A DNA stretch of 43,559 bases, from the NCBI GenBank assembly GCA_012729555.1, contig JAAYCX010000028.1, positions 1 through 43,559 of the forward strand, in the 5' to 3' direction. How positions within the stretch are numbered: position 1 is the first letter of the stretch; every line of letters starts with the position of its first letter. Under the pieces are notes generated by a model that was given only the letters and a program-made list of their open reading frames with translations, did not search any database and was not told the DNA's origin. Made by a program: the position numbers and the translations under genes. Positions 4,895-43,559 of the stretch are shown in pieces. The stretch comes from Acidobacteriota bacterium. Its GTDB lineage: Bacteria; Acidobacteriota; UBA6911.

Positions 4895-6355
4895 ATGAAT
4901 TCCTGGGAAGCCCTATCTGAAATCAGGCGGCGGGTCGCAAAAGAGGAGGGGGTGCTCCGCAGTCCCGCGGCCCTCCGGGTGGCGCTGTGCCATCCCGCTT
5001 CCTACGAGGTGGCCATGAGTTCCCTGGGATTCCAGGCCATCTACCGGGAGATCCATCTCCACCGCGGCGCCGCGGCGGAGCGGGCGTTCCTCCCCGACCG
5101 GCCGGCGGAGTACCGGAAAAACCGCCTGCCGGTGTTCACCTACGAGGGGGAGCGGCCCCTTTCGGAATACGCCGTCGTCGCCTTTTCCATCGCCTGGGAA
5201 CTCGAGATCACCGGCCTGTTCGAGATGCTGGACCTGTGCGGCATCCCGCTCAGGCGCGGGGAACGGGGCGCACGCCACCCCCTCGTCGTCGCCGGGGGCC
5301 CGCTCACCCGCTCCAACCCTGCGATCCTGGCCCCCTTCGCCGACCTGATCGCGCTGGGGGAAGGGGAGGAGACGATCCACGACCTGCTCGACGCGGCCGC
5401 GGCCATGAACCGGGAACAGACGCTCGAGTACCTTTCGGGGCGGCCCGGTTTTCACGTCCCTGGGGTTTCCCCCGGTTTCGGCCCTCCAGGCAGGGTGGAC
5501 GACGCCCGCCTTCCCGCTTCCTCCCAGATCCTCACCCCGAACGCCGTCCTCCGGTCGATGTTCCTGGTCGAGCCGGAGCGCGGCTGCTCCCGCACCTGCC
5601 GCTACTGCGTGATGCGGTGCGGCGCGGGGGGTGGGATGCGGGTGGTCCCCGCCGACCGGGTGTGGGCGAAGATCCCGGAAGCCGCCCGGCGCGTCGGGCT
5701 GGTGGGGGCCGCCGTCACCGACCACCCCGAAATCAGGCCCCTGATCCGGCGGATCGTCGACAGCGGCCGGGAGGTCGGCGTTTCCAGCCTGCGGGCCGAC
5801 CGCCTCGACCCGGAACTGGTCGGGCTGCTGGCGCGCGGGGGGTACCGGACGCTGACGACGGCGTCCGACGGGGCTTCGCAGCGGATGCGGGACCTGGCCG
5901 GCCGCAACATCGACGAAAGCCACCTCCTCCGGGCGGCGGAACTGGCCCGCGGGGCGGGGATCGAGCGCCTCAGGCTCTACATGATGATCGGGTTCCCCGG
6001 GGAGACCGACGACGACATCGGGGAGCTGATCCGCCTCTGCGGCGAACTCGCCCGGGTCCTTCCCCTGTCCCTGAGCGTATCCCCCTTCGTGGCCAAGAAG
6101 CACACCCCGCTCGACGGCGCCCCCTTCGAGGATCTCCGGGTGCTGGACCGCAGGCTGCGGGCCATCCGTGCCGGGCTCAAGGGGAAGGCCGACGTCCGCC
6201 CCGGTTCGACCCGCTGGGCCTGGGTGGAATACGCGCTGTCGCAGGGGACGGAGGAAGCAGGCTTAGCCGCGCTCGACGCCTGGCGCGGCGGCGGGGGGAT
6301 CGGGGCCTGGCGGAAGGGGTTCGCCGCCCGCGGGTGCACGCCGGCAAGGCCCTGA
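4895..6355 (+). CDS. Radical SAM protein with B12-binding-like N-terminal domain
   Basis: 486-residue radical SAM protein of unknown substrate. The N-terminal third (ALRVALCHPASYEVAMSSLG through LVVAGGPL and ADLIALGEGEE) resembles the cobalamin-binding-like domain of B12-type radical SAM proteins and of the uncharacterised TIGR03960-type family. The cluster motif CSRTCRYC places C231, C235 and C238 in CX3CX2C spacing, with an extra cysteine at 242 (CVMRC). GFPGETDDD is typical of the core barrel. It follows queE by 16 bp with a weak ribosome site, so it likely belongs to the uvrA-queE operon. A role in RNA or cofactor modification is possible but is not shown by the sequence. Confidence 0.8.
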   Translation: MNSWEALSEIRRRVAKEEGVLRSPAALRVALCHPASYEVAMSSLGFQAIYREIHLHRGAAAERAFLPDRPAEYRKNRLPVFTYEGERPLSEYAVVAFSIAWELEITGLFEMLDLCGIPLRRGERGARHPLVVAGGPLTRSNPAILAPFADLIALGEGEETIHDLLDAAAAMNREQTLEYLSGRPGFHVPGVSPGFGPPGRVDDARLPASSQILTPNAVLRSMFLVEPERGCSRTCRYCVMRCGAGGGMRVVPADRVWAKIPEAARRVGLVGAAVTDHPEIRPLIRRIVDSGREVGVSSLRADRLDPELVGLLARGGYRTLTTASDGASQRMRDLAGRNIDESHLLRAAELARGAGIERLRLYMMIGFPGETDDDIGELIRLCGELARVLPLSLSVSPFVAKKHTPLDGAPFEDLRVLDRRLRAIRAGLKGKADVRPGSTRWAWVEYALSQGTEEAGLAALDAWRGGGGIGAWRKGFAARGCTPARP

Positions 6356-6385
6356 TGCGGGGCTTGGATGGGAGCGCCATCCGCG

Positions 6386-6391
6386 TATAAT
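6386..6391 (+). promoter_or_regulatory. Perfect -10 box six bases before the start codon (leaderless candidate)
   Basis: TATAAT at 6386-6391 is followed by six bases and then the ATG at 6398, so transcription would begin at or next to the start codon. The best -35 match is weak (TTGGAT at 6364-6369, 16-base spacer). Confidence 0.5.
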
Positions 6392-6397
6392 AAGAAC

Positions 6398-7123
6398 ATG
6401 GCTTTTCTTATTCCCTGGGGCTTCGAACGGAAGTCGGCGTGCCGGGCACTGGCTCTGGTTCTTTTCGTCCTGCTCCCCACGTGCGCCCGCGGTGCGGGGC
6501 CGTCCCGGGAGGAGGGGGAATTCGAGATCCGGATCGACGGGGAGGAGATCGGGCGGGAAAAATATTCCATCGAGGTCCGCCCCGACGGAATCGTCAGCGT
6601 TTCCACCGGGACCCTCCGGAATTCCGGCAGCGAGGGGGGGCGCGTGAGGGTCGAGACGCGGCTGGAGATGGACCCTCATTACATGCCGCGCTCCTACCGG
6701 GTCGAGACTTCGGCCGGAGACCGGAAAGGGCGGCTGGAGGGGACCTTCTCCCCCGGCCAGGCCGATTTTCAGTACCTGATCGAGGGAGCCCCGCGCAGGA
6801 GCGGGCTGATGCTCGACGAATACTACGCCGTCCTGGACGCCAACGTCTTCCACCACTTCGCCTTCGTCGGCCGCCTCTTCGATTTCGATGACGGGGAGGC
6901 GCAGGCCCTCGACGTGGTGATCCCCCAGGAACTGGACAACGGGACCGTCGTCATCCGCGACGCCGGGTTGGACACCACCGAAATCGGAAGAAAAGAGAAG
7001 CGGCTGCGTCACCTGAAGCTCGATTCCGGGCAGCTGCTCATCGACCTGTGGCTGGACGAGGAGCGGGTGCTGCAGAAGATCGCCCTTCCGCAGCGGAGGA
7101 TCGAGGTCGTCAGAAGACCGTAG
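6398..7123 (+). CDS. Secreted protein of unknown function
   Basis: I do not recognise the family. From the ATG at 6398 the product has 241 residues. It starts with a signal-peptide-like segment (charged residues, then ALALVLFVLLPTCARG), so it is probably exported or, given the cysteine, possibly a lipoprotein. The mature part is rich in charged beta-strand-like stretches (FEIRIDGEEIGREKYSIEV, LEMDPHYMPRSYRVE). This pattern recalls [11 protein letters not shown] proteins that describe a substrate or lipid-binding beta sheet, but no motif fixes a function. A longer in-frame start exists at 6368; the leaderless -10 box argues for 6398. It precedes the htrA-type protease gene in the same direction. 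Confidence 0.7.
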   Translation: MAFLIPWGFERKSACRALALVLFVLLPTCARGAGPSREEGEFEIRIDGEEIGREKYSIEVRPDGIVSVSTGTLRNSGSEGGRVRVETRLEMDPHYMPRSYRVETSAGDRKGRLEGTFSPGQADFQYLIEGAPRRSGLMLDEYYAVLDANVFHHFAFVGRLFDFDDGEAQALDVVIPQELDNGTVVIRDAGLDTTEIGRKEKRLRHLKLDSGQLLIDLWLDEERVLQKIALPQRRIEVVRRP

Positions 7124-39516: not shown

Positions 39517-40581
39517 ATGAGCCGAAGCGAGCGTTTCTTGCAGGCCTGCCGAGGGGAGGCCGCCGACTGCACCCCGGTCTGGTTCATGCGTCAGGCCGGC
39601 AGGTACATGAAGGCGTACCAGGAGATCCGTGCCCGATACCCGCTGATGGAGATGTTCCGCACCCCCGGGCTCGCGGCCGAGGTCACCCTGCAGCCGGTCC
39701 GCGCCTTCCCGATCGACGCCGCCATCATCTTCGCCGACATTCTCCTCCCCCTGGAGGGGATGGGGATCGGGTTCGAGTTCGTCGAAAGCCGGGGGCCCGT
39801 GATTGCCCGGCCGGTGCGGAGCGCTGCGGACATCGAGGCGCTCCGGGTGGCCGATCCCGAGGAAGACCTGGGTTACGTGCTCGAGGCCGTGCGCCAGGTG
39901 AGGGCCGAGATCGACGGGAAGGTCCCGCTCATCGGCTTTGCCGGCGCCCCGTTCACCCTGGCCGGGTATGCGATCGAGGGGGGGGGGTCCCCCAACCATC
40001 TGCTGACGAAAAGGGTGATGTACGAGCAGCCGGAGGCCTGGAACCTCCTGATGGACAAGATGGTCCGGACCCTGGTCCCCTTCCTGAAGGCGCAGGTGCG
40101 GGCGGGAGCCCAGGTGGTGCAGCTGTTCGATTCCTGGGTGGGGTGTCTCGACCCGTCAGACTACGCGCGCCACGTACTGCCTCACACCCGGAGGATCTTC
40201 CGGGAACTGCGTGCGGAGGGCATAGTGACCATCCATTTCGGGACCGGGACCGCGGGGCTGCTCCCGTTCATGGCCGAGGCGGGGGGGGACGTCCTTGGAG
40301 TGGACTGGCGGCTTCCGCTCGGGGAGGCGTGGCGGAAAGCGGGACCCGGGGTGCGCATCCAGGGGAACCTCGACCCGGCGGCGCTGCTGGCCCCCCGGGA
40401 GGTCCTCGTCCGGAAAGCGGTGGAGGTGCTCGATTCCGCCGCCGGCCGGCCCGGCCACATCTACAACCTCGGGCACGGAATCCTCCCCGGGACGCCCGAG
40501 GATTCGGTGCGGGCCCTGGCGGACCTGGTGCACGAGCGTTCCGCGGGCCTCAGTCGAACACAACCGTCTGAAGCGACGTGA
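39517..40581 (+). CDS. hemE: Uroporphyrinogen decarboxylase
   Basis: Converts uroporphyrinogen III to coproporphyrinogen III in heme synthesis. The 354-residue product shows the N-terminal signature PVWFMRQAGRYMKAYQEIR (about residues 20-38), the catalytic aspartate in IFADILLPLEGMG, GFAGAPFTLAGYAIEGGGS and YNLGHGILPGTP near the end. GGGAGAAAGGA lies five bases before ATG 39517; an in-frame ATG at 39481 is less well placed. No other hem gene is visible. Its last 32 bases overlap the convergent zinc-ribbon gene. Confidence 0.96.
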   Translation: MSRSERFLQACRGEAADCTPVWFMRQAGRYMKAYQEIRARYPLMEMFRTPGLAAEVTLQPVRAFPIDAAIIFADILLPLEGMGIGFEFVESRGPVIARPVRSAADIEALRVADPEEDLGYVLEAVRQVRAEIDGKVPLIGFAGAPFTLAGYAIEGGGSPNHLLTKRVMYEQPEAWNLLMDKMVRTLVPFLKAQVRAGAQVVQLFDSWVGCLDPSDYARHVLPHTRRIFRELRAEGIVTIHFGTGTAGLLPFMAEAGGDVLGVDWRLPLGEAWRKAGPGVRIQGNLDPAALLAPREVLVRKAVEVLDSAAGRPGHIYNLGHGILPGTPEDSVRALADLVHERSAGLSRTQPSEAT

Positions 40582-40822
40582 TTTCGATCGTCTTCCCGCA
40601 GCGCGGATTCCGGCACCGGATCTTGTCGTCGAGCCGGATGCGGTAGTCCCGGGCCTTGGCGTACCTCGCCCGGTCGCGTTCGTCCGCGCCGCGCGGGAGG
40701 GATGCCTTCTTGGTCCTCCGGCGCCACCGGATGGGGTATTCCATCGAGGTCCGGCATTTCGGGCAGTAGATCGTGGCGGTCACGGTCTCGTCCTTTTCGT
40801 TGTACAGGTCGCGTTCTTCCAT
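40550..40822 (-). CDS. Small zinc-ribbon protein of unknown function
   Basis: 90-residue basic protein with two cysteine knuckles: CPKC at about residues 20-23 and CRNPRC at about 69-74. Together they could form one zinc ribbon. The central 35 residues are strongly charged (RWRRRTKKASLPRGADERDRARYAKARDY, in part). The start ATG lies eight bases after a perfect TATAAT, so the mRNA is probably leaderless. Its 3' end overlaps the end of hemE tail-to-tail by 32 bases. Nucleic-acid or ribosome binding is possible but unproven. Confidence 0.7.
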   Translation of the reverse strand: MEERDLYNEKDETVTATIYCPKCRTSMEYPIRWRRRTKKASLPRGADERDRARYAKARDYRIRLDDKIRCRNPRCGKTIEITSLQTVVFD

Positions 40823-40932: not shown

Positions 40933-41679
40933 ATGGGACTCATCAGCAGGCTCTTTTCAAGGGAATCCGGCCCTTCGCCGGGCCAGGTCCGGAAGGCGCT
41001 CAAGCAGGTCACCCAGATGCACGGCGAAGCGGGGACGCGCGTCGCCGCCATGGAGCGGCTGGCGTCCTGGCGCACGCCCGAGGCCGCCCGGGCTCTTCTG
41101 CGGCGGTTTACGGTCCAGACGCCGCAGGCCAGCATGGACCTGGAGGAGAAACAGTACGCGGTCAAACTGCTCGCCGGCATGGGGGAACCGGCCGTCGAGC
41201 CGATTCTCCAATACCTGAGGACGGAGCCGGACGTGACCCACCCGGTCCGGGCGCTCGAGGAAATCCTCGCGCCCCAGGAATTTCATGGCGCGCTCCTGGG
41301 AATCCTCACCGGGATGGCGGACGAATATACCCGCTGGCCCGAGGCCAAGGCCGTGCTCATCGGGCACCTTTCGGATCAGGCGTTTTCCCTGGTTGCGGAT
41401 ACGGTGGAGCGGTTCATCGACGACGACGATGACGACGTCTCGATCGCGGCCATCGACTACCTGGCCCGCAGCGGGGACGAAGCCGTGCGGGAAAAGCTGT
41501 TGGAAGCCTACCTGGCCGCCGAACACCGTCCCAGGGTCCGGGGGAGAATCCTGGACCACTTCTGCGAGCTGGGGTGGCCCGTCAGGGGATACCGTAAGAA
41601 GATGGAGGAGGCGGTCGAACTCCCCTACTACCTGACGGGCAAGGGGATCGTCAAGCGCCGGACCGGCCCGGAAGCCTGA
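40933..41679 (+). CDS. HEAT-repeat-like protein
   Basis: 248-residue cytoplasmic protein built from paired helices of the HEAT/PBS-lyase type: RVAAMERLASWRTPEAARALLRRF, EEKQYAVKLLAGMGEPAVEPILQYL and DDDVSIAAIDYLARSGDEAVREKLLEAYL (parts shown as repeat examples from residues about 37-200). A run of aspartates (DDDDDD) sits between two repeats. Such scaffolds bind proteins rather than catalyse. ACAGGAGAC before ATG 40933 is the ribosome site. It lies divergent from the zinc-ribbon gene and ends nine bases from the convergent alpha/beta-hydrolase-like gene. Confidence 0.78.
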   Translation: MGLISRLFSRESGPSPGQVRKALKQVTQMHGEAGTRVAAMERLASWRTPEAARALLRRFTVQTPQASMDLEEKQYAVKLLAGMGEPAVEPILQYLRTEPDVTHPVRALEEILAPQEFHGALLGILTGMADEYTRWPEAKAVLIGHLSDQAFSLVADTVERFIDDDDDDVSIAAIDYLARSGDEAVREKLLEAYLAAEHRPRVRGRILDHFCELGWPVRGYRKKMEEAVELPYYLTGKGIVKRRTGPEA

Positions 41680-41688
41680 AGCCGCCGG

Positions 41689-42570
41689 TCATTTTCCCCC
41701 GAAGAACGATTCGAGCGCCTGGTTGAACGCCTGCGGTTTCTCCAGGAACATGGCGGAGCCGGTCCCTTCGATGATTTCGAGCCCGGACCGGGGCACGCTC
41801 TTTTTGAGGTACTCCCCGAGCGCCCGGTTCTCCGGCGTGGTGACAAAGAGGCTGGGAACGGTGATGTGGCGGAGATCCTCCCTCCTGTCTCCCGTGACGA
41901 GGTCGAAATAGAGCGCGAGTGCCGCCGCCATGGGGGTTTTCAGGCTGGCCTTGGACAACTGGCCGATCACCCGCTCGCTCGGACCCGACCGGAACAGGCC
42001 GCGGACATAGCCGTCGGTGGCCTCGGTCCGGTCGTCCTGGAAACCCAGCAGCAGTTTCCGGGTCCGGTCGAGGGGGACTCCGGCGTAATCCTCCGATTCC
42101 ATGAACGCGGGGCTGAAATCGACGAACACGGCCATGTCGGGATCGATGGTCTCGGGACTGGCCAGGTATTCCAGCAGGGCCGTCCCCCCCGCGCCCCAGC
42201 CCACCAGGTAGGAATGCTCGATTTTGAGCTCCTGCAGGAACGCGTGCAGGTCGGCCGCCTGCTGGCGGTAGGTGTTCCCCTGCTCGGTCTTCGTGGTCTC
42301 CCCGTGACTGCGGGGATCCAGGGCCAGCACCCTGAAGCCGCGGGCGGAGAAATAGGGGATCTGCTCCTGCCAGGCTTCGGCCGGCATCGTCCATCCCGGG
42401 ATGAAAACCAGGGTGCGGTCGCCGGACCCCGCATCCAGGTAGCGTATCCTGATATCCCCCGCCTTCAGCTTCTGCTCCCTCCATGTGGCGCCGTTCCCCG
42501 CCGGGAGAAACAGCCCGCCGAGAAGCATCATCCCCGCCCAGAGAACTCCCGCCCGCCGTGGCATCTTCAT
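41689..42570 (-). CDS. Exported alpha/beta-hydrolase-fold protein lacking its catalytic triad (probable pseudoenzyme)
   Basis: 293-residue protein with a signal peptide (MKMPRRAGVLWAGMMLLGG, cleavage near AGNGA). ATG 42570 is fixed by GGAGGAGGAAGGGGG just upstream. The fold is clear from LVFIPGWTMPAEAWQEQI, FRVLALDPRSHGET and EKPQAFNQALESFF. The nucleophile elbow reads VGWGAGG, so the serine is replaced by G126. The usual C-terminal G-H is G-S at S272 (GTGSAMFLEKP). The acid strand reads LFVTTPENR rather than GxxD. Both substitutions are read directly from codons (GGC, TCC). The open frame is intact and codon use is normal, so it is not a simple pseudogene. It may bind a ligand or partner in the envelope. 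Confidence 0.82.
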   Translation of the reverse strand: MKMPRRAGVLWAGMMLLGGLFLPAGNGATWREQKLKAGDIRIRYLDAGSGDRTLVFIPGWTMPAEAWQEQIPYFSARGFRVLALDPRSHGETTKTEQGNTYRQQAADLHAFLQELKIEHSYLVGWGAGGTALLEYLASPETIDPDMAVFVDFSPAFMESEDYAGVPLDRTRKLLLGFQDDRTEATDGYVRGLFRSGPSERVIGQLSKASLKTPMAAALALYFDLVTGDRREDLRHITVPSLFVTTPENRALGEYLKKSVPRSGLEIIEGTGSAMFLEKPQAFNQALESFFGGK

Positions 42571-42734: not shown

Positions 42735-42767
42735 GCGCCTTCCCCGATGGGGGCGCCTCGATTTTTT
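42735..42767 (+). terminator. Terminator- or attenuator-like hairpin before the last gene
   Basis: GCGC and CCCC (42735-42745) pair with GGGG and GCGC (42749-42756) with a 3-base bulge, followed by TCGA and six Ts (42762-42767). It lies 23 bases before the ATG at 42790, downstream of a divergent gene. No plus-strand gene just upstream needs terminating, so attenuation is possible. Confidence 0.45.
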
Positions 42768-42789: not shown

Positions 42790-43559
42790 ATGCTTCGATT
42801 CCTGCTTGCCGCTCTGCTCGTGGCCGTCCCGCTGGGCGCGGGGTCGGCAAACGCCCAGGCTGTTGCGTTTAAAAACTTTGCCTCGTTCCGAAATCTCGTT
42901 CCGGGGATCGATTTTTTCGCCTCCAGCCGGAAGGCGGTGTCCCCCTACGAAAAGCCGGCGGCCGAGGCGATCGCGCGGCTGAAGGAGCTGATGGGCGAGG
43001 AACTGCCCAGGGGCGCCATCTTCATCTGCTCCAATCTGCAGCAGAAGGATTCGGTCTTCGAGCCCCGGGTTCTCCGGTCCGGCTACCGCTGGTCCATAAC
43101 GGTGGTGACGCCCGAAGTCCGCATGCAGGAGATGATGGAGCGCATGAAGGCCCAGATGGGGGACGACCTCCCGGCCGAGATCAGGAACCGGATGCGGGAG
43201 CGGCCGCCGGAGATGATGGCCAATGTCGAGCAGCAGGCGGCGGCCGCCCTGGTGCAGCAGATCGCCCACGCGGTGACCCAGACCTCCATGGACGAAAACA
43301 TCCAGTTCCGCTCCTCCCGGCTGGACGACATGGGCAAGAGCCCCCTGCCTGACTGGCTGGACATAGGGATCGCCTGGTACGCCGCGGGAGGCAAGGCGAA
43401 TCTGGAGTTCCTGAATCAGAACATGGAGCAGACCTTTCCGATCGAGGATATCATTTCCATGTCCCGGCCCTTCGTGGCATCGTCCTTCGACCAGGGGGGC
43501 GGCATGCCCGGGACGAACGGCGGCGGCTTTCCCGGCGGCGGCATGCCCGGGATGAACGG
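42790..43559 (+). CDS. Exported protein with degenerate peptidase-MA-like core, 3' truncated by the window
   Basis: The frame is open for 256 codons to the window edge. A signal peptide is clear (MLRFLLAALLVAVPLGAGS, cleavage near ANAQA). Residues 140-225 resemble the gluzincin peptidase-MA pattern, but the metal motif HExxH reads QQIAH (156-160), and the downstream W-L-x-E-G reads WLDIG (189-193). The first His and both glutamates are therefore missing. The region after it (NLEFLNQNMEQTFPIEDII) also fits that fold. The in-window tail is G/P/M/F-rich with repeats GGGMPG, GGGFPG and GGGMPG. AGGG lies eight bases before the ATG. The end of the protein is unknown. Confidence 0.7.
   Translation, partial: MLRFLLAALLVAVPLGAGSANAQAVAFKNFASFRNLVPGIDFFASSRKAVSPYEKPAAEAIARLKELMGEELPRGAIFICSNLQQKDSVFEPRVLRSGYRWSITVVTPEVRMQEMMERMKAQMGDDLPAEIRNRMRERPPEMMANVEQQAAAALVQQIAHAVTQTSMDENIQFRSSRLDDMGKSPLPDWLDIGIAWYAAGGKANLEFLNQNMEQTFPIEDIISMSRPFVASSFDQGGGMPGTNGGGFPGGGMPGMN

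Follow-up and report, generated by a model that had tools for sequence, protein, structure and literature searches.

The locus and the fold of the encoded protein

The window, by which we mean the whole 43,559-nucleotide stretch of DNA analysed here, carries at 41689-42570 a gene of the α/β-hydrolase fold between a HEAT-repeat gene and a gene for an exported Peptidase_MA_2-like protein. Its reading frame, described as intact in an earlier note on this DNA, does run unbroken from 42570 to 41689 on the minus strand and encodes 293 amino acids, with a purine-rich stretch preceding the ATG. The features are as follows:

40933..41679, plus strand: gene for a HEAT-repeat protein; across the family it converges on the hydrolase gene, and it serves purely as a marker of orthology
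41689..42570, minus strand: α/β-hydrolase-fold pseudoenzyme, predicted to be exported, 293 aa plus stop
42490..42570, minus strand: stretch predicted as signal peptide, residues 1-27 (basic MKMPRR start, residues 7-23 hydrophobic), read from the sequence; helix 7-17 appears at low confidence in the structure model
42193..42195, minus strand: codon 126, GGC (Gly), nucleophile elbow; Ser in intact relatives
42118..42120, minus strand: codon 151, GAT (Asp), acid kept at the end of strand β6
41827..41829, minus strand: codon 248, AAC (Asn), usual β7 acid site; Asp in no orthologue or near outgroup
41755..41757, minus strand: codon 272, TCC (Ser), catalytic His position
42790..43559, plus strand: exported Peptidase_MA_2-like protein, divergent from the hydrolase gene, running off the contig end and continuing at G000:C70:14222-14671

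The N-terminus of the hydrolase-fold protein, MKMPRRAGVLWAGMMLLGGLFLP, resembles an export signal when judged by eye, and its basic and hydrophobic stretch is consistent with the signal peptide that had been proposed; the protein is therefore likely to be exported. The assignment to the α/β-hydrolase fold is borne out by Pfam, where the protein matches the full Abhydrolase_6 profile (PF12697) over residues 54-285 with 68.1 bits (cut-off 26.3). The matches of the window protein are to Abhydrolase_6/1, and the Abhydrolase_6 profile is also matched by all 13 relatives examined. In a structure model built from a multi-row alignment (mean pLDDT 66.3) the hydrolase core is confident, its blocks lying mostly at pLDDT 72-92, and the cap is poor, with residues 154-178 and 188-228 below 50. 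The model places Gly126 between strand 120-125 and helix 127-137, and Asp151 directly after strand 146-150. Foldseek matches 3fob (E 9e-16), and VIA gives 3bdi (Z 24.0, rmsd 2.2 over 192 residues). The top structure-search matches are α/β-hydrolases only, and the protein has this fold by structure as well.

The Peptidase_MA_2-like neighbour contains an insert rich in Gly. None of the members found, which come from several families across the class, has the metal-binding HExxH, and in the WLxEG motif Ile, Val, Met or Ala stands in place of the usual Glu. As far as these motifs tell, the neighbour is a second conserved pseudoenzyme beside the hydrolase gene.

The catalytic positions of the window protein

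The catalytic acid of α/β-hydrolases follows strand β7 in group A and stands at the β6 end in group B (PMC7034887), and this distinction decides how many catalytic positions have changed. The earlier note had counted all three. For two of them it was right: the nucleophile Ser is replaced by Gly126 (GGC) in the elbow motif VGWGAGG, and the His by Ser272 (TCC) in the motif GTGSAM. The acid strand had been said to lack its Asp as well, but the β7 site is not Asp even in relatives with intact Ser and His. The acid in this Acidobacteriota family is an Asp or Glu at the end of β6, and the exported nearest relatives align with an Asp at the β6 end, none at β7, and intact Ser and His. Asp151 shares its alignment column with the Asp of all intact relatives and is retained as the β6 acid, so that two of the three catalytic positions have changed rather than three. 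In a profile search, the haloperoxidase-type relatives (L063, L067, L068, L070, L072-L074) have an Asp after β7 and Ser or Ala at the β6 end. The β6 position should be checked before a triad is declared lost.

Known active classes of the fold differ from the window protein at defined positions. An active group B serine hydrolase has Asp or Glu after β6, Ser, Cys or Asp at the elbow and His after β8, and only the first of these is found here. The protein shares with group B (PMC7034887) the fold, the elbow geometry, the acid right after β6 and the absence of an acid at β7, and differs from it in having Gly126 for Ser and Ser272 for His. Haloalkane dehalogenases and epoxide hydrolases have an Asp nucleophile where Gly126 stands. 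The bromoperoxidase/arylesterase group (group A), which supplies the best PDB sequence matches (3fob, 3t4u and 1va4, about 23% identity), shares the fold but has Asp after β7, where the window protein has Asn248, and keeps Ser and His. Two motifs of the cleft, PGW and DPRSHGE, persist. Pseudoenzymes are defined by the lack of catalytic residues that are conserved in active relatives (PMC10211241), and here both nucleophile and base are absent, yet present in intact orthologues and outgroups. As no covalent intermediate is possible and the general base is missing, the usual mechanism of the fold is ruled out, and hydrolytic activity has probably been lost.

Repeated loss of the triad within one family

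The gene is present in 12 of the 15 genomes of the Acidobacteriota family. It stands tail to tail with the HEAT-repeat gene in the family orthologues wherever the flank is visible, and within the window's genus its other side is taken, head to head, by the same exported neighbour. Among the class's 38 genomes, no match at E 1e-15 or better lies outside the family, and a plasmid search returns only relatives of less than 60% identity, in general hydrolases. The source organisms are Acidobacteria MAGs, one of them labelled gp18. Two genomes, G013 and G014, have both flanking genes with no hydrolase gene between them; the intergenic spaces of 317 and about 380 bases contain no recognisable hydrolase remnant. 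These two genomes join the window's clade at 100/100. The absence from G010 is left out of the losses, since the HEAT gene is also unfound there and the neighbour gene sits where a contig ends.

In a motif alignment of the family orthologues, the states at the three positions, in the order nucleophile-acid-base, are:

Window, G011, G007: Gly-Asp-Ser
G008: Ser-Glu-Ser
G006: Ala-Glu-Pro
G005: Ala-Asp-Arg
G004: Ala-Asn-His
G012: Asp-Gly-Ser, with an in-frame TAG
G001, G002, G009: Ser-Asp-His
G003: Ser-Asp-His, with a frameshift

An Asp at the elbow occurs among the family orthologues only in the disrupted G012 copy. The nearest outgroup comprises 13 proteins, of which 12 are Ser-Asp-His (11 from another Acidobacteriota family, and G216), compared with 4 of the 12 family orthologues (Fisher p = 0.004, a value that ignores relatedness). 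Because the triad is intact in nearly all outgroup proteins, Ser-Asp-His is ancestral. A further match in G398 is left uncounted, as a stop cuts it before the His site. The one outgroup protein with a changed triad, L041 of G060 (6159-7061), has an elbow Thr, an Asn at the β6 acid site and an unchanged His; read from its motifs, it is another separate triad loss, in another Acidobacteriota family.

In a tree the family is monophyletic (100/100), as is the Gly-Asp-Ser clade (100/100). Mapped onto a tree of neighbouring proteins, the changes amount to at least three losses of the nucleophile in the family, probably four, with a change to Ala probably twice. The His has been lost at least twice, a number given as a minimum because support for the deepest branchings of the genus is low (57-65%). 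The codons fit a stepwise change from Ser (TCN) through Ala (GCN; G006, G005, G004) to Gly (GGN), and at the His site both Pro (CCG) and Ser (TCC) are observed beside His (CAC). Gly126 and Ser272, whose conservation across species was to be checked, are fixed in the window's three-species clade and not across the family, where G001, G002, G009 and G003 have Ser and His. Homologues with Ser and His, which had been named as evidence for a recent loss, thus exist at the level of genus and family (about 50-56% identity to the window protein) but not within the closest clade.

Constraint on the altered protein and its likely role

Within the three-species Gly/Ser clade, where the frames are intact in all three species, ω is 0.15 for the whole gene (95% 0.10-0.22) and 0.11 for the mature part (0.07-0.18), and ω = 1 is rejected (2ΔlnL about 100). 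The dN/dS comparison that the earlier note had called for thus agrees with maintenance by selection, as expected of a retained pseudoenzyme. For neighbouring genes of these three genomes ω is 0.05 (zinc-ribbon-like), 0.08 (hemE), 0.09 (HEAT), 0.14 (pseudo-peptidase) and 0.19 (exonuclease-like). A 10-taxon codon model also rejects ω = 1, but its deep branches have reached saturation, with branch values up to 10, so that its background ω of 0.047 is not trusted and the analysis uses the estimates from within the clade alone. Scaled to the HEAT gene, protein distance is 1.0-1.2 for intact pairs, mostly 1.5-1.8 (some 1.1-1.3) for comparisons with a degenerate copy, and 0.55-0.94 inside the window's clade. 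These ratios, from a small sample and without confidence limits, fit a phase of relaxed change when the residues were lost and a return of constraint afterwards.

As the protein is still constrained, we consider it most likely, with a probability of roughly 0.68, that it is a retained pseudoenzyme with a non-catalytic role, binding a ligand or partner in the envelope. The ancestor would have been a single-copy exported serine hydrolase with a triad of Ser at the β5 elbow, Asp at the end of β6 and His. The need for hydrolysis may then have weakened in one Acidobacteriota family, and the nucleophile and His codons would have changed several times independently. With both residues gone in the window's clade, ordinary acyl- or alkyl-enzyme chemistry would be impossible, while the folded protein would stay under purifying selection. 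Once exported, it would probably still bind its old ligand, or a partner, via a putative retained pocket or surface. Against such a role stand the small number of species in the clade (three) and the short time since the loss, the lack of the gene in G013 and G014 and the stop in G012, which make it dispensable in close relatives, and the poorly modelled cap. The earlier note's conserved, undecayed pseudoenzyme therefore stands in part: the protein is a pseudoenzyme by sequence and undecayed in its own clade, but not a long-conserved one, because relatives keep Ser, Asp and His, others have lost them separately and a sister clade is without the gene.

The main rival is a dying gene, given that the gene is missing or disrupted in close relatives. 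Hydrolysis would no longer be needed, the catalytic sites would have drifted, and the remainder would not yet have broken in three species. The empty site between the same neighbours in the sister clade, the in-frame TAG of G012 and the frameshift of G003 would all follow, although these two lesions, read from draft MAGs, could be sequence errors. The variation of the nucleophile codon among relatives (Gly, Ala, Ser, Asp) is likewise as under drift, and so are the raised distances of most degenerate comparisons. A gene in decay should however not show an ω of 0.11-0.15, no higher than its neighbours, a relative rate that has come back down inside the window's clade and three unbroken frames, and we consider this explanation unlikely, if one to be kept in mind.

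Catalysis might instead have migrated to other side chains of the cleft (e.g. His89, Asp151, Glu247), giving a non-covalent acid-base lyase or isomerase. The retention of Asp151 and of both cleft motifs would suit this, and cofactor-free oxygenases and lyases on the fold are not all Ser-dependent, according to PMC10548524 and PMC11878206. But nucleophile and His are both gone, His89 is Gln in 5 of the 10 complete orthologues, including the triad-intact G001 and G009, and no new conserved Ser, Cys or His appears in the window's clade, which makes such a shift improbable. That errors of sequencing or assembly produced the catalytic codons in the window's MAG is hardly credible: all sequences are draft MAGs, but two others from different projects (95% and 82% identical) have the same Gly and Ser, one of them (G007) encoding the elbow Gly by GGG where the window has GGC, and at least two base changes would be needed from Ser TCN or His CAC. 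Artefact or chance as a reading of Gly126 and Ser272 is rejected on these independent copies.

The reading as a retained, non-catalytic protein has precedents. Neuroligins and cholinesterase-like adhesion proteins keep the fold, have lost the catalytic Ser and are used for binding; they are eukaryotic and of another subfamily, and the likeness is one of fold and Ser loss, not of sequence. There are good reviews of pseudoenzymes in general (PMC10211241), and two bacterial families of the fold are without the triad, DUF3530 (PF12048), thought to have an envelope-related role, and DUF687 (PF05095) (PMC11878206). These are non-catalytic members of the same fold, as the window protein probably is, but they are other Pfam families, to which it has no match in the Pfam search at E up to 1, and the triad is missing from the whole family rather than lost recently and repeatedly. 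The closest comparison is with the intact orthologues G001/L018, G002/L035 and G009/L033, which are the same gene beside the same HEAT neighbour, and with the sister proteins of the other Acidobacteriota family (G115/L039 and ten more). Orthologues and sister proteins alike are exported, most with a PG oxyanion motif, and unlike the window protein they keep Ser-Asp-His. The kind of protein is already known, and what is unusual is recent, repeated loss in one syntenic single-copy gene. Known pseudoenzymes of the fold are mostly old, fixed families, whereas in this case closely related genomes show one single-copy gene, at a fixed locus, as intact, half-lost, fully lost, broken or deleted, and the order of steps toward a pseudoenzyme is thus open to experiment. 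No paper on bacterial hydrolases losing catalysis repeatedly turned up in a literature search, which carries little weight.

More tentatively, and with considerable doubt, a second, non-catalytic function of the exported hydrolase may be what permits repeated loss of the active site (to Gly, Ala or Asp), giving a series from active enzyme through half-triads and retained dead protein to gene loss; the dead form might cooperate with the exported pseudo-peptidase in the envelope.

Two further observations concern the surroundings of these genes. A hairpin of terminator type, with its T run (GCGCCTTCCCCGATGGGGGCGC CTCGATTTTT), lies at 42735-42760 on the plus strand, some 30 bases upstream of the pseudo-peptidase start codon; two terminator-like sites are found against 0.9 expected. 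At 40553-40822 on the minus strand, a 90-aa protein with four Cys (CPKC, CRNPRC), whose Pfam zinc ribbon matches are all sub-threshold, is 79-97% identical in the family, with an ω of 0.045.
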